The translations under genes and the position numbers were made by a program. The notes under the pieces are model-generated. The model was given only the letters and a program-made list of their open reading frames with translations. It searched no databases and was not told the origin of the DNA. Source: Polytrichum commune (lineage: Eukaryota; Streptophyta; Polytrichopsida; Polytrichales; Polytrichaceae). Taken from it: a DNA stretch of 64,000 nucleotides. Below, piece after piece: positions 4,207-39,990 of this stretch (position 1 is the stretch's first letter; the number at the start of each line of letters is the position of its first letter). The stretch spans positions 28,416,527 through 28,480,526 of the forward strand of contig OX485808.1 in assembly GCA_950295325.1 (NCBI GenBank), written 5' to 3'.

Positions 4207-4852
4207 GAGAGATTGTAGTTGGGTCGCTAAAAGGATTGCAGCTGGGTCGCTAAAGGATTGCGGCTGGGTTGCTAAGAGATTGCAGTTGGGTCGCTAAAAA
4301 GATTGCGGCTGGGTTGCTAAGAGATTGCAGTTGGGTCGCTAAGAGTTTAGCTAGGTTGCTAAGAGATTGCAGCTGGATCGCTACATGGGTTGCAGCTGGG
4401 TCGATAAGAGTGCAGCTGGGTCGCTACAAGGATTACAGCTGGGTCGCTAAGAATTCAGCTGAGACTGAATTTGAATAGTGGGAGGGGGAACTAATAGTGT
4501 TACATTAGATTATGTTATAGTTTAGTTAATTAGGTTATTACATAATATTAATTTAGATAATTAGTTCATTAGCAAGTTAGGGGAACACGAGGCATTAGAT
4601 GGTGGGATTAGTGGGTGAACTTTGATGTGAATGATTGTAGGGTCACAAGAGGGTGTGTTAGGATTGTGATAATAGAGAAGAGCGTTTGTCAACACTTGTA
4701 CTCGTATTATGGAATAAATTGGTGTACAAGAGTTGATGGAAAATGTAATGGATTTTTACGAAGTTGGGAAAAGGGAGTTATGTGAACATGAATGTGATCC
4801 CCATGCCCTCACCCGGACTAGGACGCATAAGGGTGGGTGGTTTGGCCTCATA
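4207..4852 (+). mobile_element. 5'-truncated LTR of the TGTGAG...CTCACA family
   Basis: The last 150-200 bp match the 3' end of solo LTR copy 1: ATGGAATAAATTGGTGT, then CACCCGGACTAGGACGC, GGGTGGGTGGTTTGGCC and a final CTCATA. The left part is a minisatellite, and no TGTGAGCCC start is present, so the copy is truncated. It abuts the gag fragment on one side and the 3' untranslated region of another element on the other. Confidence 0.7.
4210..4452 (+). repeat. ~25-bp minisatellite (GCTGGGTCGCTAAGAGATT)
   Basis: Roughly ten degenerate units of GATTGCAGCTGGGTCGCTAA occur in tandem, with lengths from about 20 to 30 bp. It corresponds by position to the minisatellite tract in the full solo LTRs but has its own sequence. 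Confidence 0.8.
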
Positions 4853-27165: not shown

Positions 27166-27479
27166 CACCAGTCCCTCATTCTGAGCTGTAAGTAGATACT
27201 AGGTATTATATAAGATATTATACAAGTTTTTGGGTTTTATGGAGGGTCTAAGTTTTGGGGGAGCGGTTGGTGGTTTTCAAGTCTCCTCTTATGTAGGAGG
27301 ATGGACATGGCATATTGTATTGCAATGGTATTAATGTTTTTAAAGGTGTTTTTGATGGTAACCATGGGTATTTTGAGATTTTCTTCTAGTATTTTCATAG
27401 ATGGGATGTGGGCCGTAGCTCGGGCCCCAGCTGTGAGGACAATAAGTGGTTCGATTTTCCATCCTCTGGAAGCGATACT

Positions 27480-27925
27480 GTCAATCAGTGGTTTGTATTT
27501 GTTGTTTTTTGCTTCAATAGTTTCTGGGGAAAATCTGTCGTTACAATATGTGAATTCAATAAATTGTATGGTGAGGTTAGGGACAACGTCGATGGGAGGG
27601 TCCTTTTGATATGGTAATCCTTTGACGCATAGTATGTCAGGGCGAAACCTTGCATTGCAATGACATCTTTGTGTGTTACATGCGCAGGGGAGTAGCCAAT
27701 TGGGGACAATATTTTCTTGGGGATTATTATTGAAGGTACCGGCATTCATGAGGGTAAAACATCGGGATTTTTCGGACGAGATTAGGAGCTTCCTAATTTC
27801 TCCAACTGCTTTGTTATGTCTTTTAATTTGTAGTGAGTGTATATGTTGTTGGTTACATTTCAGTAGTACATGTAGCCAAGTGTCTGGGTCGTTTGAATTG
27901 CATATGGGACACGTGATAGAGGGGT
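27480..27925 (-). pseudogene. LINE ORF2: CCHC finger and restriction-like endonuclease
   Basis: The last segment of ORF2 (27968-27237, 243 aa) has CPICNSNDPDTWLHVLLKC and then the IKRHNKAVGEI stretch. That is the C-x2-C...H...C...RHN arrangement found just before the endonuclease of R2-type elements. About 70 residues on comes RFRPDILCVKG, then IEFTYCNDRF, then EAKNNKYKPLI. This is the PD...(D/E)...K...KY pattern of restriction-like LINE endonucleases, with Glu at the second acidic position. In R2 this domain nicks the target DNA that primes reverse transcription. A TAA lies just upstream at 28005-28007. The frame ends in TAA at 27237-27239. Confidence 0.8.
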
Positions 27926-28239
27926 ACCTCTGGTGACCGAAAAACATTTGTTTTCTAGCATTACCCATGTATGTTCCTGTACGGAATTTAATAAGGCATG
28001 ATTTTTATTTGTCTGTGATTAAGGGATTTGTCCAGAATTCGTTGGACAATTCTTTGTCAATGTCTATATTTTCTGTCCATTTACACGTGTTGGGGGTTTG
28101 TGTGGCCATGACTGCTATATTGGTTTCCCTGTCATATTTTTTAATTTGTTTTTCTAAGAATCTTACTGGACCTTTGTCTGGGACTTCTTCCATTGAGGCC
28201 CAGACGTCCTTTTGATAATAGTATGGGGTGGCGTGGGCA

Positions 28240-28720
28240 TGTTCGTATGGGTGTATGGCGATTATGTGTTCTAATTCTAACCCGTCTTTTGCTAGTTTAT
28301 CCGCTTTTTCATTACCGTCAATGTTGACGTGTGCTCGGACTTTGTATAGTGTGATAGGCTGTGTACGGTCTTGGAGGATTTTTACCATGGAGTTGAGTGT
28401 GGTTTGGTCTGGGTGACTATTATGGAGAGTGGGGTGTTTAATTTGTGTGTTGAGTAGATATAGTACGTTTAGACTGTCTGTGAATATAAATGTGGGTTCA
28501 TTAGGGAATTGTGTATTGATGATTCTTAGTGTTTTGTGTATAGCCATCATTTCTGCACGTAGTATGTTTTGATGCCCCTGGAGTCTTTTGGCGATATTTA
28601 AGCCTTTGGGGCTATAGATACCGTATCCAGCTCTTTCTCTTCTCCATACTCCAGGGGCAATTTCTTTGGGTTTTATAAAGGATCCATCTGTGTAGTAGCT
28701 AAATTGGGGGTGGAATTTTA
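28240..28720 (-). pseudogene. LINE ORF2: RNase H domain
   Basis: Inside the 28005-29243 block the four RNase H catalytic positions are present in order: YYTDGSF (Asp), LRAEMMAIHKTL (Glu), FTDSLNVLYLL (Asp), and HVNIDGNEKADKLAKDG (His and final Asp). Spacing fits type I RNase H of LINEs. The domain would remove the RNA template after reverse transcription. It lies between reverse transcriptase and the restriction-like endonuclease. An in-frame TAA at 29376-29378 separates it from the block before it. Confidence 0.9.
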
Positions 28721-30619
28721 GTGGTAAGTTGGTTTGGTAGTTTGGGAGTTGTGGGGTGGGGTTATTATTATATAGGGGTGTGTTTGGGTAGTTTGATTTA
28801 GCCCATTTTTTACTAGGGTTAACGGTGATGTTCGGAGGGGTGGGTGGTGCAATTTGAGTGTGGCTTTGTAATATTTGGAGGTTATTTGCTGTGTCGTGTA
28901 TTAGCTTTATTTGTTCGTAGGTACCTATGTTATTATTTTGGTGATGGATGCAGAATATTTGCATGGTAGATGGTTCTTTCCTTGTAGTATTGAGTTCGGG
29001 GGGTATTGTTGGTTCTTCGTATGTGATTGTGTCAGCAGCAAAATGGGCAATGACATGTGTGTCTGGGAGTAGGCCTGTGTGTGGGTTCGAATTTTGGTAC
29101 CAGTCAGTGTCTGGGGATATAATTATAGTGATTGTGTAAGGGTCATTTTGGGCCGCTATGCGTGCCCAGTGAATGGCTTGTTGTAGGTTTGTTGAGGTAT
29201 GAGGATGTGCGTATCCAATTCCTTGCCATTTATAGTCAAACACTTTTCCTAAGGATCCAAATATTATGTCTCGTGAAAAGGGTGAGTAGAATTGGGTGAA
29301 TTGTGTAGGACATGTAACTGGGGATGAAAAGTATGAGTGGGTAATATTGAATGTTGTAATTAGTAGATCCAGTATTTAAGTTGGTATTGTATATTGGGCT
29401 CTTTTGAGTGGGTCGTTCTTTGGGATACGGTATTTGTATCTTTGGTATAGCCAGACAATTTCAGTTTCGAATGATTGGGTAGGTGGTTCTAGACCATGTG
29501 TGGTATTTTTTGCCAATTGATATTGTTTCCATAGCCATGTTAGTCTAGCTTTCGGGATGGTGATGAGATGCCTTCCATTGTCTTCGTATATGTGGGCGAC
29601 ATCGAATTGTGTTTGGATAATATCAGAATTTGTTTCAATGTCGTTTTCTGGGTTGCATTCACTAGTAGAGATATGTGCTAGCGGAATTATTGTGGATGGT
29701 GTGACGTATCTTGTGTCTTGGTGTTGTTCCGTGGTGGAGTAAGCGTTAATGATGTTTGAAAAATAATTGTGTTGTCTTTCTGTGTAATATTGGATAAGCA
29801 GGTTTGTGTTGTGGTTGCATATGTTGGCTTCACAGTAGGGGTATAGGTCCCTTTGGGTTCGCCATTTATTATATGTGTTGTTATTTGTTGTGGTCCATTG
29901 ACACATATATGACGTAACTGTTCTTTTTATTCCATTGTGGTCGTTAGATTGTTTTTGTTTGTGATCGAGTATTTTGTGTATGGGGAATTGTTGGGGGTCT
30001 TTAAGCATGTTGTTGGGGGGAGGAGGTAGATGGGGGATGGGGGGGTTAGGGGGGTTAGGGGGGTTAGGGGGCGGTCGGTGTGCGAGGTAGGATGTTGTTA
30101 TTTCTTATTATATATTTGTTTTTGAGGGATCTTGGTGGGTGGTGTTGTTGGCAGGGTAGGGGGCATTGATTGCAGGGGGGGTGGCAGAATAGTTCATTAG
30201 CTATGTTAAGTGCGCTTTGGATAAGTTTAGAAGGAGTGGAGTGGTAGATTTTGAATTCGTCCTTGTTCATCAGAGTGGTACCATTAGGCAAGGTAATTTG
30301 GTCTAGTGTGGTTATATTATGTATAAGTAATTTGTGTAGTAGTTTGAGTGAGGTGTTGGGGTTTATGCCATGTAGCATTTGTGCTTCTTGCATCCATGCA
30401 GTTTCAAGTGAGGATGGGGTTAGTAGAAAGTTATTTATTGTATTTTTTAGATGGACTCCGACTTTATGTTTTAGCAGAAACAGTGTTCTAGTGATGGGTG
30501 ATCTAACATAGTGGTGGTATTTAATGCGAGTGATTTCTTGAGAGCCCCCATGTGTGGCGAGTATGAATTGTACTAGACCGGTATATATTCTCCCAATTCT
30601 CCCTTTGTCATTGAGGGCA

Positions 30620-32340
30620 TTTTATAATTGCTCTCCAATGCACCTTAGATAGGCATTTTGTAATGAAAATGCTTCAATTCCAAATAGGTTGTGGGGGAGT
30701 TGCGTGGCAATATTAGATGTGCATTTAGGTATTCCGCATATTGTTTTATGGAGTGCGATGATTTTTTTGTCTAGTTTTTTTATGGCTGGTATGGAGTATG
30801 GTACTGCATAAAAACAATATGCTATTCCAGCACGTATGACTGTGTCTGCCATGTTGATTTTTTGTTTCATAGTAGCTGGGCAAGCTACGAGGGCTTGACA
30901 TTGTTTGATTACTTTAGCTGTTGTGGTATTTATTTGTGTTTTCCATTTGAGTGATGGTGCAAGATTTATTCCTAGGTATGTATAGGGTTCATGTTGGTTT
31001 AGGACTGGTATAGGTTGGTTTCTATAGTTTATGTTAGTGGATTGGATTAGGGCCTTCAAGGTTGTGGGGTTAAGTTTAGATTTGTTTGGGCATCCAGTCA
31101 CTGCACATTTTGGTATACCTAGGTCCATTCCTGCCCATTCATAGAATTTGTCTAGTTTGTTTAATTGTGTTTGTAATGATTCTAGTTTGTTGGCGATTGC
31201 TGCAAGATCGTCTGCATATGCTGCTGATGAGATTTTCACTCTGGACGTACCGAAGGTATATCCATTATTTCCTTGTTGCAGCCATTTAAGTAGGGGTTCC
31301 AAGAATATGATAAATAGATATGGGCTAAGGGTATCGCCTTGTATTGTACCTCTTTGGATGTGGATTGGTAGAGTTTTTCCGAAGTGTTCGCCGGTAAATA
31401 TGGTTGATGATTATGAGTATATGTTTCCTATGAGGTTTATGGAGTCATTGGGATAACCCAGGTTTTTCATTATGGCTAATAGTCTGGCGTGGTCAATGGA
31501 GCCAAAGGCGTTTTTAAAGTCAATGTAAAGAATGTATATATCGTGGTTTGTGAGTCTAGTGTCTTCAAGTGCTGCAATTAATATTTGGATTTGTCTGGAG
31601 GTGCTTCTTTCTGCTCTGAACCCTTCTTGGCTATCGTGTAGTATTTGGTATCTTTCTCCGTATGCTGATAGGATAGAAGTTAGTGTGCTTGTATATAATT
31701 TATATATAGTGTTAGCTAGTGCAATAGGTCTGTGATTTGTTAGTTGTGATGGGTTATTTTTTTTATATAATAAAACTGTTAGGCTAGTTTTCCATGATGT
31801 TGGGATTTGTTTTTGTTTATAGCAGTGTTTAAAGAATATAAACAATATTTTGTGAAAGCGTGGAGGCATATTTTTTAGAATTGAGTTGGGGATTTTGTCT
31901 GGACCTGGGACTTTATTATTACTTAGATTTTTAAGACAGAAGTCATATGTTTCTTGATCAAAGTATGTGTGTAAGGGGATTTGGGGTTCTCCTCGTTTAT
32001 CAATTGTGTATCCATCTAAGTCGTGCCAAGGGTATTGCCTTACTCCACATGTACAGTGAATTGGATGTGTATTTTGATGGTGGCATGTAGGGACTGTTGG
32101 GCGGTTACTGATGGATTGTTGTGCGTAAATCTCTGAAGCAATGTCTTCAGGGTTGGTTAATATGTTGTTTTGTCTATCAATGATGGAGTCAAGAGGTGAG
32201 GTTTCAGTGTTCTTGAAGACTTTCCGATTTATTTTCTTGGGGATTTTTTCATACATTTGACGGTATTTTGATACGGCTTTTAGGATGCAGTCTCTGGTGT
32301 ATTTTGTGGTAATTTTCCTGGCTTCTTTATTTGCCGTTTT
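30620..32340 (-). pseudogene. LINE ORF2: reverse transcriptase domain
   Basis: Conserved reverse transcriptase blocks appear in order on one frame: NNKVPGPDKIPNSILK (~31.9 kb), HRPIALANTIYKL, HDSQEGFRAERSTSRQ, YIDFKNAFGSIDHARLL (~31.5 kb), IQGDTLSPYLF (~31.35 kb), and AYADDLAAIA (~31.21 kb). The FxxADD/YADD aspartates are intact. Two in-frame TAA codons interrupt it, at 31411-31413 just after NLIGNIYS and at 30622-30624. The polymerase would copy LINE RNA at the nicked target. The frame later shifts inside the C-rich tract at 30030-30075. Confidence 0.93.
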
Positions 32341-32869
32341 TGCTATAGTTGCTATGGTGTCAATCCATTCGACATGAGATGTTGTTGTAGTAGGTGGGTG
32401 TGGGATGTTGACGTGTTGGTGGTTTCGGATATCGGTTAGGATGGGGTGTACTTGCCAGCTTGGGTTATTTTGTGCAATGTAAATGGTTTTCCTGATGAGG
32501 TGATATGTGTGGAGGTGTCTTTTCCATTCTCTAACTAGTTTGCGTGGTAAAAAACCACCTTGTTGTGATGTTCTGTTTGTGAGGTTGGGTAGAGGGTCTG
32601 CTTTGCAGGTTTTTTCAATTGTTTCTGAGATTTTGTTTATAATGTATTTCAATGATGTGCAGGCATTTTGCCATTGATCGTGTGTTAAGTGTTGGTGGTC
32701 TTCTAATAGTGTGGTAAGTTCTTTAAGTTGGGTGGAGTTTTCTTCGAAGAATGTTATGTTAAATTTTTCTAGGTTTTCCGGTGGTATCGGGTTCAGTATC
32801 CTAGTTGGTGTGGTGTTTGTAGAGGGCGGGGGTCTAGCTATAAGTGTGTTGTGTGGGATGTGTAATGTG

Positions 32870-33640
32870 ACTGGGTAGTGATCTGAATTTAGATTCATGT
32901 TTGTGTTTGTAGTGGAGGTAAATTTGTTGTTGTCAAGGGAGTGAATGTAGAAACCATCTATTAGGCTTGTTGATGTGTAGTTGTAGCCACCTTGTCTGGA
33001 GATACTAGTGTTGGTAGTGATATATTCTAAGTCGAGAGATGTGGTAAATTTTTTCCATTGGAAGTCCTCTTCTTGTGGGGGGGTAGTAGTGTTGTTATTT
33101 TGTCTGCCCCTAAGTGCAATATCTCTGTTAAAGTCACCGCATAGTGTGTATATGTGATTGGGGTGTGTAGTGCTTGTTTAGTGATTTCATTCTTAAGGTG
33201 TGGGATAAGACATGTGTCTTTTGGGTGCGTAGGCATATACATGTGTATAATTAGCCAAGGTGTTAGTGGATGGTTTTTTATTTTTATTACTTGTAGGTAC
33301 GGGGAGATGTTTGCTGGAGTGGGAATTTTGGTGATATTTCCCGGGAATGCATATTTGTGGTGGATAAGTGTGAGTAGGCCACCTCTTCCGGGGGTATATG
33401 GCATTCTTTGTTGGATGCACCTCGTGAGTGCGTGTGTGTTGTTGAAAGTGAGTTTGAATTCCGGAAATAAGTTTTGTATATATTTAGTAGATTTGTTTGC
33501 AGTGAGTTTGGTTTCTTGGATATGAATGATTGCTGTGTTATTTAGAGAGTTGTTGATTAAGTCTTGTAAGTTTGGTAGTGATGTGTTGAGCGATGACGCA
33601 TTCCAAGTTATTATGCTTGTTTCGTGCTCGGTGTTAGAGT
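32870..33640 (-). pseudogene. LINE ORF2: AP-like endonuclease domain
   Basis: Motifs of the LINE apurinic-like endonuclease are in order: ITWNASSLN (~33.6 kb), IHIQETKL (~33.51 kb), RGGLLTLIHHKY (~33.38 kb), HMYMPTHPKD (~33.23 kb), CGDFNRDIALRG (~33.13 kb), and LNSDHYPV (~32.88 kb). The GDFN and SDH catalytic motifs are kept. The upstream motifs lie in the frame that also encodes the 2A motif. GDFN and SDH lie in the reverse transcriptase frame, so one single-nucleotide frameshift sits between about 33.13 and 33.22 kb. Confidence 0.92.
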
Positions 33641-34265
33641 TTGTTCTTGTGATTGGTGTGGGAGCGGCTGGGAGTGGGGGTGGGTGTGAGTATTCGCTTA
33701 TATTTTCTAAACATCTAAGTGTTTCGGTTATTAACTGGTTTGGAAGGAAGGGGAATTCTTTCTTGAGGGTGATTGGTGTGGGTGTGGTGGCTTGGTTGTG
33801 GATGAAATCGTATATTTTGGTGTGTATTGAGTTTTGGGGGAGTATTATATGTTGATTGTTTTCTATGAATATTGTGTAGGGGTGCGGTGTCAGTATGTGT
33901 CTTTCGGGGGGGTTGGTGAGGTTAGCTAGTCTAATAATTAGTGTGTTGGTCCATATGTCGTTAAAGTGGTAGTTTTGGGGTTGGGCTAGTATGCTATTGC
34001 ATGTTTCTATTGAGGGGTGGATGGTGATGACTATAGCATATAGCATATGGGTTGGTGGTGATTGCCTTTGTGTTTGGATGTATTGGTGTAGATGTGGATG
34101 GGTAATTATTGCTTGATGGTGTAGAGGGTGTGTATTTCTTAGTATGGGAGCAAATGTATTTGCTATGTGTTGGTATTGAGGTTGTAGTTTGATAGTGTTT
34201 GGAATGAAGTATATCTTGGCTCTCTTTTTGTGTGTAGCAGGATGCGTATGTAGGATGTTAGGCAT

Positions 34266-34289
34266 TGGTCCGGGGTTGGATTCTATGTC
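34266..34289 (-). other. 2A ribosome-skipping motif (DIESNPGP) in LINE ORF2
   Basis: Codons 657-664 of the 1076-aa frame read D-I-E-S-N-P-G-P, preceded by NKLELLKCG. The 2A consensus is D-(V/I)-E-x-N-P-G-P with an upstream hydrophobic helix often of the form LLxxGD, and every invariant residue is present. In a ribosome the Gly-Pro bond is skipped, releasing the upstream chain and continuing translation. Here it would separate the repeat-rich N-terminal product from the endonuclease-polymerase. 2A sequences are known at the start of ORFs in some trypanosome and animal LINEs. Activity is predicted from sequence only. Confidence 0.85.
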
Positions 34290-34329
34290 TCCGCATTTTA
34301 GTAATTCTAGTTTGTTAATGAAGTAGTAT

Positions 34330-36260
34330 CCGTGGAAGTGAATTATTTTGGGGTTTTTCATGTTTGTTTTTAGATATATTGTGATTGTACATTTGGTTGT
34401 GGAGAATAGGTTAGGTATATCGGGTATGGTTTTTTCTGTTTGTATGGGTGAGAAGTGTGGTTTCGTATTATTTGTAGATTTTTGGCTTGTTATTGAGTTA
34501 GGTTTCCAATTATTTATGAGGTGGTATTTGTTATTCTTTGTGTGGCGAGGCCGGTAGGCCGAGGCCCTTGTGTTTTTTGGGTGGGGTTGGTATTTTATAT
34601 GAGGGCTTAATAGGTGTTTGATTTTGTTATGGTGTTCGAATCTAGGGTAGGGTTTATTTTTGGAGCATTTGTTTTGTAGGTGTGCTTTGGCATTTGTTGA
34701 GAGGTGAGGTTGGTATGTTGAGGTTGATTTGTTTTTCGGGTTGAATTTTTGTTTAATATGTATATTTAGTTTTGGGTAGGGGTGGTTTTTGGGGAATGGT
34801 TTGTGGTTTTGGTGGGTGTTGTATTTAGTTGTTAGGTGTGTATGGGAGTTGTCTTGGAGTACATGTTTTGTAGTTGTGCTTGGTTTCCATTTGGTTGTGA
34901 TAGGGTTTGGTTTGTGGTGAAGATGATAGGTCAAGGTCATTTCGTAGTTTTGACATAATTTGTTTTTCAAGTGGAGTTTGGGTTTGGAGCTAGGGTAGGG
35001 TGTGCTTTTTGAGCTTAGGTTGGGATGTATTTTAGATAGTGGATGGGGCTCTAGGTTAGGTTGGTTTTCTTGCTTTGGGTGGGTATTATGTTTTGGGCAT
35101 TGTTGTGGATGCACTTTGTTTTTTAGGTAGAGTTTAACTTTTGAGTGTATTCTATATTTCGGATGAAGTTTATTATTTGGATGAGAGATGTGTCTTAGAT
35201 GGAGTCTATGTTTTGGATAAGATATGTATTGTGAGCGAAGTTGGGGGTGTTTGTGGTTTGGGGATAGTTTGGTTTTTGGATGAAGTTTATGTTTTAGGTG
35301 GACTTTGTAATTTGGATGTAGCTTGTTTCTTGGACGGAGATTGTGCTTTAAGTGGGGACTATATCTTATGTGAGGGTAGTATATTGGGTGGGGCCGTGGT
35401 GGTTTTTGTTTTGGGTGGGTATGTTGTTGTGGGGGGGATGTTATATTTCTTAGTTGATTGGGTGGAGGGAAATTGATTAGGTTAGGGTAGGTTCCTAGTT
35501 CATAATGTGGGTTATGTTTTGGATGAGATATGTATTTTGGGTAGTTTATGTATTTTGGATGGGATCCGTGTCTTGGATGAAGGAGGTGCCTTGGATGTGG
35601 TATGAATTTTGAGTATTTAACGGAGTCCGGGTTTTGTATTATGTTATTTGATTGTTTAGGTGTGAGGGAGGGATTTAGTTTTGAGTACGTCCTTTGTTTA
35701 GGATGTAACTTATATTTTAGATGTGGTTTGGATGTAAGATGAAGTTTGTTTGTTGGTATGGTGAAGGTATCTTTGATTTGGATGCATGATGAAGGTATCT
35801 TTGGTTTGTTCTTGTTTGATTTGTGGTATTTGTTTGGTGTGGATTTTGTTATAGGGGGGGTGATGGGTGGGGTGGGTATAATGTTTTTTAGTTGTTTAGG
35901 TATGGATTGTAATTTTGTATGTTTGCTTGTAGTTAGGTTAGTTCCCCAATATTGTGTAAAGTTATTTTTGTATTTAGTTTTGTGGCGAGGCCGGTAGGCC
36001 GAGGCCATTTTATTTTTTGGGTATTTGTAATTTGAGTGGTAGTTTGGTGTTGAGAACGGTAGTTTATTAGGTATGGGTTGTGTTTTGTATGTTGGGTGGG
36101 GTTTGTATTTTTGGTGGAGCTTATATGTTTGGTGGGGATTATATTTTGGGTGTAATATGTATTTTGTGTGGGGTTTGTATTTTGGGTGTGTATATTGTTT
36201 CGTTTGAGTTCTGTCTTTGTGCATGTGTAAAGTAAAGTGATTGTATTTATATTCCATATG
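34330..36260 (-). repeat. Degenerate hexapeptide (18-bp) repeat tract, His/Pro/Lys-rich
   Basis: The first ~640 residues of the 1076-aa frame are mostly hexapeptides of the form H-P-K-(Y/H)-x-x (for example HPKYKP, HLKHKL, HPKNKL). Two stretches break the pattern, both containing ASAYRPRH. They are encoded by two copies of GAGGCCGGTAGGCCGAGGCC (~34548 and ~35988) in otherwise diverged surroundings. The tract is strongly basic and G-poor on the coding strand. It has no recognised domain. It could bind nucleic acid, but that is a guess. Confidence 0.85.
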
Positions 36261-37046
36261 GTATTTTGGCCGTCATATGGTATCATGGCTAATATGATGG
36301 TATCTTTTATTATAAAGTACGGACTTTGTTGTAGGTGTGTGTATGATGTTTGGGTGTAGTCGGTTTTTAGTCTCATTTATTCTTTGGTTTTTTATGATTA
36401 TGTTTTTGGTTATAGTGAAAGGGTTAGTTGTGGCGGGTGTTATGCTTTTTATTTGTATGAGTAGGAAGTATGTGTATTTTGGATTAATTGTATTGTATTT
36501 GTATTTTGTTTGAGTATAGTGTTTTGTTTGGGTATGGTATTTTGCTTGAGTATAGCATTTTTCTTGAGCATGGCATTTTGCTTGAGTATGGAATTTTGTT
36601 TGAGTATGGTGTGTTGCTTGAGTATGGCATTTTGTTTGAGTATGGTATTTTGTTTGAGTATGGTATTTTTCTTGAGTACGGTATTTTGCTTGGATATGAT
36701 ATTTTGCTTGGGTATGGTATTTTGCTTGGGTATGGTATTTTGCTTGGGTATGGTATTTTGCTTGAGTATAGTATTTTGTTTGAGTATGGCATTTTGCTTG
36801 AGTATGGAATTTTGCTTGAGTATGGAATTTGTGTTTGTATAAAGTAGATAACTTGTATTTCATATGGTATTTTGGACATTGTGGGATACTATGAATAGTA
36901 CGATGGTATCTAGTATTTATTCTAGGTGTAATAGTATATAGAATACTATGTGTAATACTATGTTTAATACTATGTCTACATATGTGTATGTATCTAAGAT
37001 AGTATTGAAGTAAATACTTTTGTTTTACCCGGCGATTTGTGGTCAA
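36260..37046 (-). pseudogene. LINE ORF2 N-terminal extension, same frame as 1076-aa ORF
   Basis: This 257-codon stretch begins as a TTG overlapping the ORF1 stop (GAT-TGA/TTG-ACC) and is in the -1 frame relative to ORF1. It ends at a TGA at 36273-36275. Past that TGA the frame is open and includes the ATG at 36257, so it is one reading frame broken by one codon. PKYHM-(K/E)-YK occurs both near residue 60 and at the 36257 start, which shows an internal duplication. Whether ORF2 starts here, by frameshift or reinitiation after ORF1, or at 36257 cannot be told. Confidence 0.6.
36504..36827 (-). repeat. 18-bp tandem repeat, 18 units
   Basis: Units of TTTTGCTTGAGTATGGTA (plus strand) repeat 18 times with one or two changes each, in strict 18-bp register. 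The array is open in several frames on both strands because its period is a multiple of three. On the minus strand in the ORF2 frame it encodes HTQAKY repeats. It looks like the young, homogeneous end of the hexapeptide tract downstream. Confidence 0.97.
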
Positions 37047-38800
37047 TCCACATTTGGCAGGTCTTTAATCATAAGATTTGGGTTTACCAACCCAGTAATT
37101 TGTTGCATCCCGGTAAGTGCCATGGTTAATGTGCTTTGGATGTCCAACATTTGCTTCTTCAATTTTTCGTTGATGTCATCTACATAGTTGTGGGCCTCTT
37201 TGACTATGTCATCCTTCAAAACCTTCATCTCTTCTTGTAGTTCAAGCTTGAGTTTCTTGTTGCCTTCTTCAATGGCCTCCTTCATGATGGTAAAAACTTC
37301 GCTTTTGGTGGCATTCTTCTCCCCTTGGTTTTGGCTTTGGATTGCTTCAATGGTGTTCACCAAGCAAGTGTTAGTATCTTCAAATCCAAACTTGACCAAC
37401 AAATCTTTGGAGGGTTTGTCAATACCATCAAGACTTCTACGGTGTGGAGTGATTTCCACATGATAAACACCAATTTTTTCCTCTTTTCCTACAAACTTTT
37501 TGTATACAAAGGGGTTGAGGCATTCAACATTTGCACTACCATTGTGTCTAATTCCATCTTGCTTATGGAACCAAATGGAGACAACATTCTTGGTTCCAAT
37601 TATCTTGCAAATTTCAAGAGATGTGTCATCTATGCTCATCAAGATGGGAAGGTTGTAGAAGGTGAGGGTTAGAGCTTCTTTCCTTTGTTTTTGCTCCAAG
37701 GTGAGAGAAGGCCCTTTGTTCACTTGTCCTTCCAAAATTTCATGGTGTGTTGCAACTTGAAGTGTTTGGATTTTCTTGGCTTGTGAGGGGGTTGGTGCAA
37801 CAATGTAAGCATGATTGTTGGGAGTGCTCTTTTGCACCTCTACAATCTCAAATTCATGACCTCTCCTAAAACTATTCTCTAAGATATCTTTGAAGAGCAT
37901 GTGTGAAGAGACATCAATCAAAGTTTCGCTAATGATTTTGATTGAAAGGTTGTTGTTCCTAGCTATGGAGTGGTAAGTCTTACATACCTTTCCAAAAGTA
38001 CCTTGGGTTGATTTGGGGTCCAATTGTAGAATGAATGGTCTAAGTCCTTTCAACAAAGCCACACCATCAATTTCGGGGTGGAGAAGGTGGAGTTTGGCAA
38101 TTCCCGCCCAAACTCCTTTTTCCCCACCTCTCTTGACACTCATGCACATGATAGATATGGGCTCAATAAGGTTAGTGCCAAGAGGAATTTGCATAAACTC
38201 AAGTCTTTTCCTTACTAGTTCTTTCACATGGTTGTGTAGGAGAGGGGTGTTGGGTAATTGAAATTCAATAGCAACATGAAAGTCCAAAGCAAGACATATA
38301 TTGGGATCAATTGGGATATCATATGGGATTTGTGTTAGGTTGAGGTGTTGTCCAAGGACACCATCCTCTCTCTTACCTGGGTAGTAGATTTGGGGTATCC
38401 TTGGGAAGGATATTGCGACCCCCTCCATTTCTTCCGCTTCCTTCCTTGGTACACCCCTAAGTACCCTATCTTCGATGGATTCACCATCGAAGAGCTCATC
38501 CAACCCCTCTTCCATAGCCAATTTCTCCATGTTAGTGAAACCATACCAAAAATTTTGACGGAACCTTCGTTCCGGGAAGATAGAGTTTACCTGTGTGGCT
38601 TGTGGGTGTCGTTGTGGGGTTTGGTGTAGAGATTTGTTCGGTGTTGTCTTCTCCCGGGTCCTCTTGGTGCCTATTTCCTTCGCAGCTTGATTCTCCTTTG
38701 CCTTCTCCGCTAAGAGCCGCATTAGGTTTTGTGAGGGTGTGTCTACCTCCATATTGTCATCATCACCAAAGATGGGTCGGAATGTGGAAGGCGATGCCAT
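37043..38800 (-). CDS. LINE ORF1-like protein, 585 aa
   Basis: An intact frame starts ATG at 38800 and ends TGA at 37043, immediately upstream of ORF2. Residues 1-70 are Ser/Thr/Lys-rich and probably disordered. A middle globular part includes CMSVKRGGEKGVWAGIAKLH and an RRM-like stretch (LTFYNLPILMSIDD, with KNVVSIWFHKQ about 15 residues later). The C-terminus (~500-560) is a charged heptad-like helix (EEGNKKLKLELQEEMKVLKD). RNA-binding plus coiled coil is usual for LINE ORF1 proteins, which coat the RNA. The frame is undamaged, unlike ORF2, and its base composition is less skewed. I have no family match, so it could also be an unrelated neighbour. Confidence 0.6.
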   Translation of the reverse strand: MASPSTFRPIFGDDDNMEVDTPSQNLMRLLAEKAKENQAAKEIGTKRTREKTTPNKSLHQTPQRHPQATQVNSIFPERRFRQNFWYGFTNMEKLAMEEGLDELFDGESIEDRVLRGVPRKEAEEMEGVAISFPRIPQIYYPGKREDGVLGQHLNLTQIPYDIPIDPNICLALDFHVAIEFQLPNTPLLHNHVKELVRKRLEFMQIPLGTNLIEPISIMCMSVKRGGEKGVWAGIAKLHLLHPEIDGVALLKGLRPFILQLDPKSTQGTFGKVCKTYHSIARNNNLSIKIISETLIDVSSHMLFKDILENSFRRGHEFEIVEVQKSTPNNHAYIVAPTPSQAKKIQTLQVATHHEILEGQVNKGPSLTLEQKQRKEALTLTFYNLPILMSIDDTSLEICKIIGTKNVVSIWFHKQDGIRHNGSANVECLNPFVYKKFVGKEEKIGVYHVEITPHRRSLDGIDKPSKDLLVKFGFEDTNTCLVNTIEAIQSQNQGEKNATKSEVFTIMKEAIEEGNKKLKLELQEEMKVLKDDIVKEAHNYVDDINEKLKKQMLDIQSTLTMALTGMQQITGLVNPNLMIKDLPNVD

Positions 38801-38809
38801 GTTTTGGTT

Positions 38810-39990
38810 GGGCTAGGAACTCTTCAAGCTTGAGGTGTAGCAGCCTCGCAAGTAACTCTGTGTTCGTAACAGACACCAACTCAGTCTGTTCCTCGTCCGC
38901 TACAACCCCTTGTGTCGCCTCTTCCTTCCTCCTTGGCAGCTGGTAATAGTTCCTCAGTAGCAGGTAGTGATTTTCCGGTCAGCAACAATCTCCCTCCTCG
39001 GCAGCGAGTGTAGGATGTTCAGCTGTGATCGTAATGCTGCTAAAAAGGTTTGACTTCGATATTCAACTTCGATGTGCGACTTCGGTGTAACAGTAGGGGC
39101 AGAGACAGTTGGTGTGGCCAGCTCTTTTGGTGTAGAATGCTTCGAGAGCAGAAGCCCAGATCGCAAAAGCAATCCCAGAGTGATCTCCGAGTGTAGATCG
39201 TAGAATGGTGCTAAGGGTGCCAGATGATTCGTAACAGACAGCAGCTCAGTATGTTCTTCGTCCGTCAACAATCCCTTGTGTTGCTTCTTCCTTCCTCCTT
39301 GGCAGCTGGTAGCAATTTCTCAAAAAGCAGGCAGTAGCTTCCAGTCATCGCCAATCTTCCTCCTCGGCAGCGGGTGGTTTTTGGGTGTCTGCAGTAGTTA
39401 GTGGATCACAGCAGCAGGACGTCTACGTACAACAACTGTAGTATGACTTATCAGCAACAAATCACAACGGCTAGCTCAAGTTTTCACTTGCGGTGCTTTT
39501 CAGCAGGTAAAGAGATGTAGTCCGGCTATTCAGCTAAGTCACAGGTCGTGGGGTTTCTACAGGATGTTCAACTACGAACGTAATGCAGCAACAGAGAGGT
39601 TTGATTTCGATATTCAATTTCGATGTACGGTTTCGGTGCGACAGCCGGAGCCGTAGTTGTCAGCAAAGACGGTTGGTGCGGCCAGTTCTTTTGATGTAAA
39701 GCTCTTCGAGATTGCAGAAGCCCAGATCGCAAAAGCGATCTCGGAGTGATCTCCGAGTGTTTAGATCTAAGGTGCCGTATCTCAGAGTGTTCCTAGAGTG
39801 CCAAATCGCAGAGTAATTGAATAGTTGTCTTTAATGTAGAGCACTTCGAGATCGCAAAGGAAGCGATCTCAGAGTGATCTCCGAGTGTTAGATCGCAGAG
39901 TGGTTCTAAAGGTGCTAGAACGCAGAGTGCTCCTAGAGTGCTTAGATCGCAAAGTAATCAAATAGTTGTCCAGATCTTACAGTATGTCGG
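38810..39990 (-). repeat. LINE 5' UTR direct repeats
   Basis: Two long units share CTTCCTCCTTGGCAGCTGGTA (at 38925 and 39292), GGATGTTCA(G/A)CT...CGTAATGC (39012 and 39560), and GCCCAGATCGCAAAAGC (39148 and 39720). GATCTCCGAGTG recurs at ~39180, ~39750 and ~39880. Tandem promoter monomers upstream of ORF1 are common in LINEs. A palindromic AGATCGC/GCGATCT element is enriched. No ORF here is credible. Confidence 0.75.

Follow-up and report, generated by a model that had tools for sequence, protein, structure and literature searches.

An octapeptide with the signature of the 2A (StopGo) class is encoded on the minus strand of the window, the 64,000-nucleotide stretch of DNA analysed here, within ORF2 of a LINE. 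Does a plant retrotransposon carry a working 2A, and what becomes of the protein segment that precedes it? The answer favoured here, at a probability of roughly four in five, is that the motif is a working 2A in ORF2 of an APE-type, probably Dualen-like LINE, and that a leader would be shed there before the enzymes. In the window copy the leader is interrupted by a stop, the frame breaks within the endonuclease at ~33.1 kb, and more stops follow downstream; because this copy is itself damaged, the argument rests on other copies in the genome.

The window minus strand reads ...YYFINKLELLKCG-DIESNPGP-MPNIL... inside an open frame of 1081 codons (33027-36272), and the fuller peptide around the motif is FINKLELLKCG-DIESNPGP-MPNIL. 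No invariant residue of D(V/I)ExNPGP is missing, and the canonical 2A that a preliminary description had read from the letters of this DNA is borne out. Judged from its sequence, the motif is a real 2A and not a product of chance.

The genome searched is an assembly of 407.8 Mb in 64 contigs, and the window lies on C6 (44.7 Mb). The codon pattern GAYRTNGARNNNAAYCCNGGNCC, which corresponds to D(V/I)ExNPGP and also admits Met at position 13, is found 273 times genome-wide (143 + 130), and the same pattern read backwards is not found (0 + 0). Each of the seven large contigs carries copies of the LINE. Among the first 100 pattern matches listed, the 70 in fetched loci were read (the other 30 and 173 further matches were left out), and 70/70 are within this LINE group. 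The LINE-bearing genome is a land-plant nuclear genome, probably that of a moss. By sequence, PsaB of the assembly is nearest to the Physcomitrium patens chains 6l35, 8htu and 7ksq (~98% identical), followed by 9lut, then by seed-plant chains and, lower down, by those of green algae. The attribution of the motif to a plant LINE holds.

Organellar or contaminant origin was considered and dropped: RuBisCO small-subunit genes are found on C1, C2, C6 and C7, and the plastid contig of the same assembly is separate (C8, with rbcL, trnR(CCG) and accD, gene names by reading).

Three groups of elements, A, B and C, were named by eye from 34 further pattern-picked loci (L085-L089, L095-L123). Clade A reads ..YYFINKLxLLxCG-DIExNPGP, clade B ..LLLLLSG-DIETNPGP, and clade C YYTWNNSTLILLHG-DIExNPGP. 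At the protein level, the part after the 2A is 48-63% identical to that of L091, a clade A element, in clade B and 29-39% identical in clade C. The upstream sequence differs among the groups, and what they have in common is a hydrophobic run and a Gly, in the form (C/S/H)G-D-I-E-x-N-P-G-P; the Gly at 11 is missing in a few copies, e.g. L017, L068, L069 and L081. Set beside the context classes in the available part of PMC12846837, a comparison by reading and unscored, the upstream contexts of all three groups (ELLKCG, LLLLSG and LILLHG) are suitable for a 2A. In the same part of that work, D at 12 is found together with G at 11; L-rich contexts have (A/S/C)G as their last two residues and are paired with S at 15. 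Among the first 100 matches listed, a set chosen by the pattern itself, position 15 is most often P (31) or T (30), then S (22) and L (11), with I and A in 2 each and Q and F in 1 each. The preference for S at 15 is thus only partly matched, as P or T is commoner than S in these 100.

Table 1. Features of the element in the window copy, with positions numbered along the window.
Feature	Position	Strand	Basis or remark
ORF1	37043..38800	minus	first Met at 38800
Leader, ORF1 stop to 2A	34290..37042	minus	G-poor (6%); one stop at 36273-36275 in the window copy
18-bp tandem repeat in leader, 18 copies	36501-36830		in-frame YHTQ(A/T)K repeats
Hexapeptide ELLKCG (positions 6-11 of the 2A)	34290..34307	minus	class compared by reading with PMC12846837 (available part)
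2A octapeptide DIESNPGP	34266..34289	minus	sequence, pattern and copy survey
Predicted skip site	between Gly 34269-34271 and Pro 34266-34268	minus	
Linker domain, conserved, mostly helical (~190 aa)	33699..34268	minus	model on relative L091
APE-type endonuclease, limits approximate	32860..33632	minus	frame broken at ~33.1 kb; evidence on relative L091
Reverse transcriptase (RVT_1), two pieces split by a stop	30961..31761	minus	Pfam
PCIF1-like domain, in the RT-RNase H interval, upper limit approximate	29160..29510	minus	29.8 bits vs Pfam cut-off of 31.1 bits
RNase H	28278..28700	minus	Pfam RNase_H
C-terminal zinc finger (CPIC...DTWLHVLLKC) and RPD..E..K stretch	27240..28004	minus	by eye

Domain order and class of the element

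The order of the domains is directly observed. In L091, ORF2 is 2924 codons from stop to stop. The 2A was first described as sitting exactly between an N-terminal part and the endonuclease. The order is correct, but the two are not directly adjacent, as ~190-210 conserved residues intervene. The L091 model of this region has a mostly helical domain of ~110 residues, with block pLDDT mostly 76-94 and lower in the first ten.

Upstream of the reverse transcriptase (RT), an APE endonuclease is found by an Exo III profile match of 1.3e-4 over 43 positions. The L091 model, weak overall (mean pLDDT 64, pTM 0.40), matches NExo, APE1 and L1 EN, with a best E of 5.7e-7; there is no Pfam match for the endonuclease. 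The RT of L091 matches RVT_1 at 7e-30, and the nearest solved structures by sequence are R2 proteins (2e-29). With a non-LTR RT and an APE endonuclease upstream of it, the element is an APE-type LINE.

A Pfam match to PCIF1_WW, from the family of the cap m6Am methyltransferase, is present in 5/5 copies tested, which represent the three groups (best 2e-13; L091:9476-9763, plus strand). Against the PDB, phmmer reaches PCIF1 only at E 0.03 and a profile search returned nothing at E 0.01, and AlphaFold gave an unusable model of the region (mean pLDDT 40.5); the PCIF1-like assignment therefore rests on Pfam. The residues NPPF, which we take to be the catalytic motif of PCIF1, align with HPHN-like residues in the LINE domain. 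The catalytic motif looks degenerate, and an active methyltransferase is probably not to be expected. The RNase H that follows is matched by Pfam RNase_H at 4e-13 in L124, 5e-14 in the window and 5e-15 in L126.

At the C-terminus, a zinc finger (CxxC..H..C) and an R/KPD...E...K stretch are conserved in three copies from clades A and B (L124:979-1743, L137:271-1023 and the window). Read by eye, the stretch is a possible restriction-like endonuclease (RLE), and if it is one, the element would be a dual-nuclease (Dualen-type) element. The designation "Dualen-like", which the element had been given at the outset, is in keeping with the APE fold, the RT, the RNase H and the by-eye zinc finger/PD..E..K. 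A PDB profile search with the C-terminal region found no RLE relative. By domain content, a Dualen-like element is plausible.

Beyond the ORF2 stop, one clade A and one clade B element share a conserved stretch, GTGTC(C/T)ATCCTCGAAAGGGGAGAGTAGT (in L124 after 1743, in L137 after 1023). ARAGORN found no tRNA-like 3' tail in L124 and L137, and Rfam returned nothing for the whole window at gathering scores. Relatives in viral contigs were sought via the post-2A alignment; 82 stretches matched a pattern and 0 were confirmed by tblastn.

Conservation of the motif among copies

Copies were searched for with a 369-residue segment that runs from just before the 2A into the endonuclease, so that the 2A is included. 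Of 1247 candidates, 111 were scored; the survey takes in every one of the 82 rows from C1-C5 and leaves out the 29 from C6, C7 and C36, the window among them. The 2A site is covered in 81/82 copies (not in L071), and the exact octapeptide is at the homologous place in 68/81. Some rows are near-identical duplicates, e.g. L054/L055 and L082/L083, and the surveyed copies are thus not independent. The preliminary description had proposed such a comparison of related copies, and had named absence of the motif from other copies, or a varying position, as the outcome that would count against it; that outcome was not obtained.

Seven of the 13 variants have K at 14 (L021, L026, L042, L051, L057, L067 and L080). 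Others have N at 12 (L020), G at 12 (L065) or H at 16 (L059), kinds of variant that are reported as active in viral contexts (PMC12846837, available part). The remaining three have K at 16 (L046), R at 17 (L022) and R at 18 (L025).

A second survey was based on the RT, so that copies were chosen independently of the 2A. Here 116 of 2033 candidates were scored, and the 48 rows taken are those of C1 together with those of C2 that lie below 64.1 Mb; two later C2 rows were left out. The exact pattern is found within 8 kb upstream on the same strand in 34/48 rows and on the opposite strand in 0. In 33 of the 34 it is ~2214-2302 nt before the RT segment, and in one at 1485. Among the 14 rows that lack the pattern, five are variants already named (L021, L042, L025, L026 and L022) and three more are single-residue variants (L129 with K at 14, L134 with H at 16 and L136 with K at 16); in the other six (L128, L130, L131, L132, L133 and L135) nothing alignable to the 2A region is present where it would be expected. 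The motif and its fixed place in the element are thereby directly established.

Parsimony was used to assign codon changes to the branches of a tree of 82 sequences, i.e. 81 copies and the window, with L071 dropped. On internal branches, the seven fixed motif codons display 12 synonymous changes and 1 amino-acid change, the latter in the Glu codon. The corresponding figures are 123 and 297 for 99 leader codons upstream, and 364 and 247 for 177 codons downstream (Fisher, motif vs upstream p = 6e-6, vs downstream p = 0.019). With all branches included, the motif codons have 29 synonymous and 9 amino-acid changes (Fisher, 2e-9 vs upstream and 0.003 vs downstream). Random seven-codon sets are as conserved as the motif on internal branches in 1.7% of cases (P = 0.017), and 31 of 267 other 8-codon windows have amino-acid changes as few. 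Relative to downstream codons, the constraint on the motif is thus only moderately unusual. The presence of synonymous changes at the motif signifies that constraint acts on the peptide and not on the DNA. This comparison of synonymous and amino-acid change had also been proposed from the first reading, and the constraint that it finds at the peptide level is observed directly.

A recent subfamily has DIKPNPGP in 5/5 copies read (L021, L042, L051, L067 and L080, on C1, C2, C3, C4 and C5). The RT of this subfamily is 96-100% identical to that of L091, and two copies have open frames of 2663 and 2924 codons. The Glu-to-Lys change at 14 is also found outside the subfamily, in L026, L057 and L129. 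As young copies with long open frames carry DIKPNPGP, either Lys is tolerated or skipping is dispensable, and the subfamily is the strongest result against the reading as a working 2A. According to the available part of PMC12846837, activity stays at 26-56% with E14Q and, in its own context, above 95% with E14H; no mention of Lys at 14 was found in that part. With the DIKPNPGP subfamily, whether retrotransposition needs skipping can be tested directly.

The leader and the route of translation

It was initially thought that the element makes an N-terminal protein without a separate ORF. An ORF1 does exist upstream, however, in a minus-strand frame at 37043-38812; that of the window copy has no Pfam match at E 0.01. 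The leader between the ORF1 stop and the motif is 273-922 codons in length in eight elements from the three groups, a set chosen in part because the open frames are long. In the motif frame the eight leaders have 0, 0, 1, 0, 0, 1, 0 and 0 stops, and each other frame has 17-57. A leader frame of such composition would not stay open by chance. The G content of the eight leaders is 5-7%, vs 18-21% in ORF1. Low G also extends past the 2A: in seven elements G makes up 5-12% of the coding strand from the leader to 3 kb beyond the 2A (in the window, 31270-37042, minus strand).

Comparisons between subfamilies P, K and S give the leader a dN/dS of 0.48-0.54. After the 2A the ratio falls to 0.12-0.15 over the first 190 codons and to 0.08-0.12 over the 400 that follow; beyond the linker, the window-copy rows, whose frames are shifted, were left out. 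Within the S subfamily, dN/dS is 0.48-0.78 in the leader, and the linker value of 0.7-1.1 is based on 0-2 synonymous changes and offers no useful contrast. The leader ratios denote low constraint yet are below 1. The leader thus keeps its frame, and constraint on its sequence is lower than on the enzymes by a factor of four to six. That the leader is both open and weakly constrained is directly observed. It is an unusual case, in which selection acts more to keep a frame open than to preserve what the frame encodes, and the 2A probably accounts for this. With 273-922 residues that are little constrained, shedding of the leader is the best reading, and the original suggestion that the 2A frees a useful N-terminal protein is not favoured.

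Two clade C loci have tandem 2A-plus-linker units in one frame (L116:451-1273 and L089:401-1020). The units of L116 are 801 nt apart, and the second unit of L089 ends in NPGA. Duplication of such units may be one way in which leaders grow. BLAST of linker against leader, run to find remnants of earlier duplications, gave weak matches only, with E of 0.2 or worse.

The start of ORF2 varies. L091, L092 and L126 have an ORF1 stop that overlaps an in-frame start codon as ATGnnTAG (ATGacTAG in L091/L092, ATGgaTAG in L126), which is a stop-restart layout. The other five (L090, L093, L094, L125 and the window copy) have their first in-frame ATG only 107-182 nt past the ORF1 stop, and in four of them it is preceded by out-of-frame ATGs. 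The entry route is therefore not uniform, as five of the eight elements have no stop/ATG overlap.

The proposed route of expression is as follows. Ribosomes would reach ORF2 from the end of ORF1, by stop-restart in at least some copies, and would then translate the long G-poor leader in frame. At the 2A, the joining of Gly and Pro would fail and the leader would be released. A separate, Pro-initiated protein would follow, with the linker, endonuclease, RT, PCIF1-like domain, RNase H and C-terminal zinc finger. As the leader would be shed and only its frame must stay open, its sequence and length would be free to drift; release at the 2A may thus be the cause of the relaxed leader.

Perhaps the peptide is kept instead for a structural or binding role at the start of the enzymes, and leader and enzymes stay fused with no skipping. 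This is improbable, although the Glu-to-Lys subfamily, which spread recently with long open frames, would fit it, and the neighbouring G-Y-Y-F and M-P-N-I are also conserved within clade A. The constrained residues are exactly those that define a 2A, and position 15, which lies between them, varies. Clades B and C share only the hydrophobic and G context upstream, and a fused leader should show more amino-acid constraint than is observed.

A slightly less probable alternative is that the enzymes start inside the leader, by an IRES or a leaky start, which would place the 2A near a short N-terminus and leave most of the leader as untranslated RNA. N-terminal 2A signal sequences do exist, as in the dual-targeting signals of sea-urchin NLR proteins (PMC4981915, available part). 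In-frame ATGs are also found near the 2A, at 4421 and 4604 or 4628 in L090, L091 and L093, and the leader RNA, being G-poor, is probably little structured. However, in 6/8 elements the motif frame runs from the ORF1 stop to the 2A with no stop at all, and in the other two it has one stop each. Untranslated RNA would not stay open in this way where the other frames have 17-57 stops, and a mostly untranslated leader is therefore disfavoured.

A chance match or assembly artefact, which has nothing in its favour beyond the shortness of the motif, is of negligible probability in view of the 273 matches vs 0 backwards, the same place of the motif in diverged groups and the copies on all seven large contigs; a chance match is already refuted by the copy survey.

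Comparison with known systems

The working-2A reading leads to a broader proposal: that this is the first natural StopGo/2A of a land-plant genome, present in hundreds of LINE copies of three diverged groups, that the 2A insulates the enzymes from a leader selected mainly to be translatable, and that DIKPNPGP is either a new variant or an outgrown 2A. Taken as a whole, this proposal may equally well stand or fall. The literature searched, the coverage of which was incomplete, yielded no plant LINE with a natural 2A. The hundreds of natural 2A sites, varied at 6-11 and 15, provide a series for testing what plant ribosomes accept.

Heras in 2006 and Odon in 2013 reportedly described 2A sequences in non-LTR retrotransposons of Trypanosoma cruzi and of animals such as sea urchin, and the title of the 2013 work is said to term the elements APE-type. 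That LINEs of trypanosomes and animals carry a 2A is established (cited in PMC4981915, PMC5972666 and PMC12846837, available parts). These elements and the one described here have in common the octapeptide and the non-LTR class; the 2A of the T. cruzi and animal elements is internal in a polyprotein (PMC4981915, available part). The LINE described here differs in host kingdom, in its low-constraint leader behind a separate ORF1, and in its linker domain, RNase H and PCIF1-like domain.

Dualen/RandI elements have APE and RLE endonucleases and an RNase H (PMC4640811, available part). The LINE described here shares the APE fold, the RT, the RNase H and, by eye, the finger with R/KPD..E..K, a possible RLE. 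It differs in having a PCIF1-like domain, and no 2A is mentioned in the available part of PMC4640811. The silkworm element SART1 has overlapping ORF1 and ORF2 with stop-restart (PMC5972666, available part), and L091, L092 and L126 are similar. The LINE described here differs from SART1 in having a leader and a 2A between the start and the enzymes, and 5/8 elements are without the overlap.

The motif itself resembles L-rich viral StopGo sequences (motifs 2 and 6 of PMC12846837, available part; F2A FDLLKL). Shared properties are the hydrophobic run, G at 11, D at 12 and, in the window, S at 15; the L-rich upstream class is active in lysate (PMC12846837, available part). The sequences described here differ from this class in belonging to a plant nuclear transposon and in having P or T more commonly than S at 15 among the first 100 matches listed. 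StopGo is common in RNA viruses and rare in cellular use, with none in plant viruses according to the available part of PMC12846837, and yet the 2A works in plants (PMC4981915, available part).
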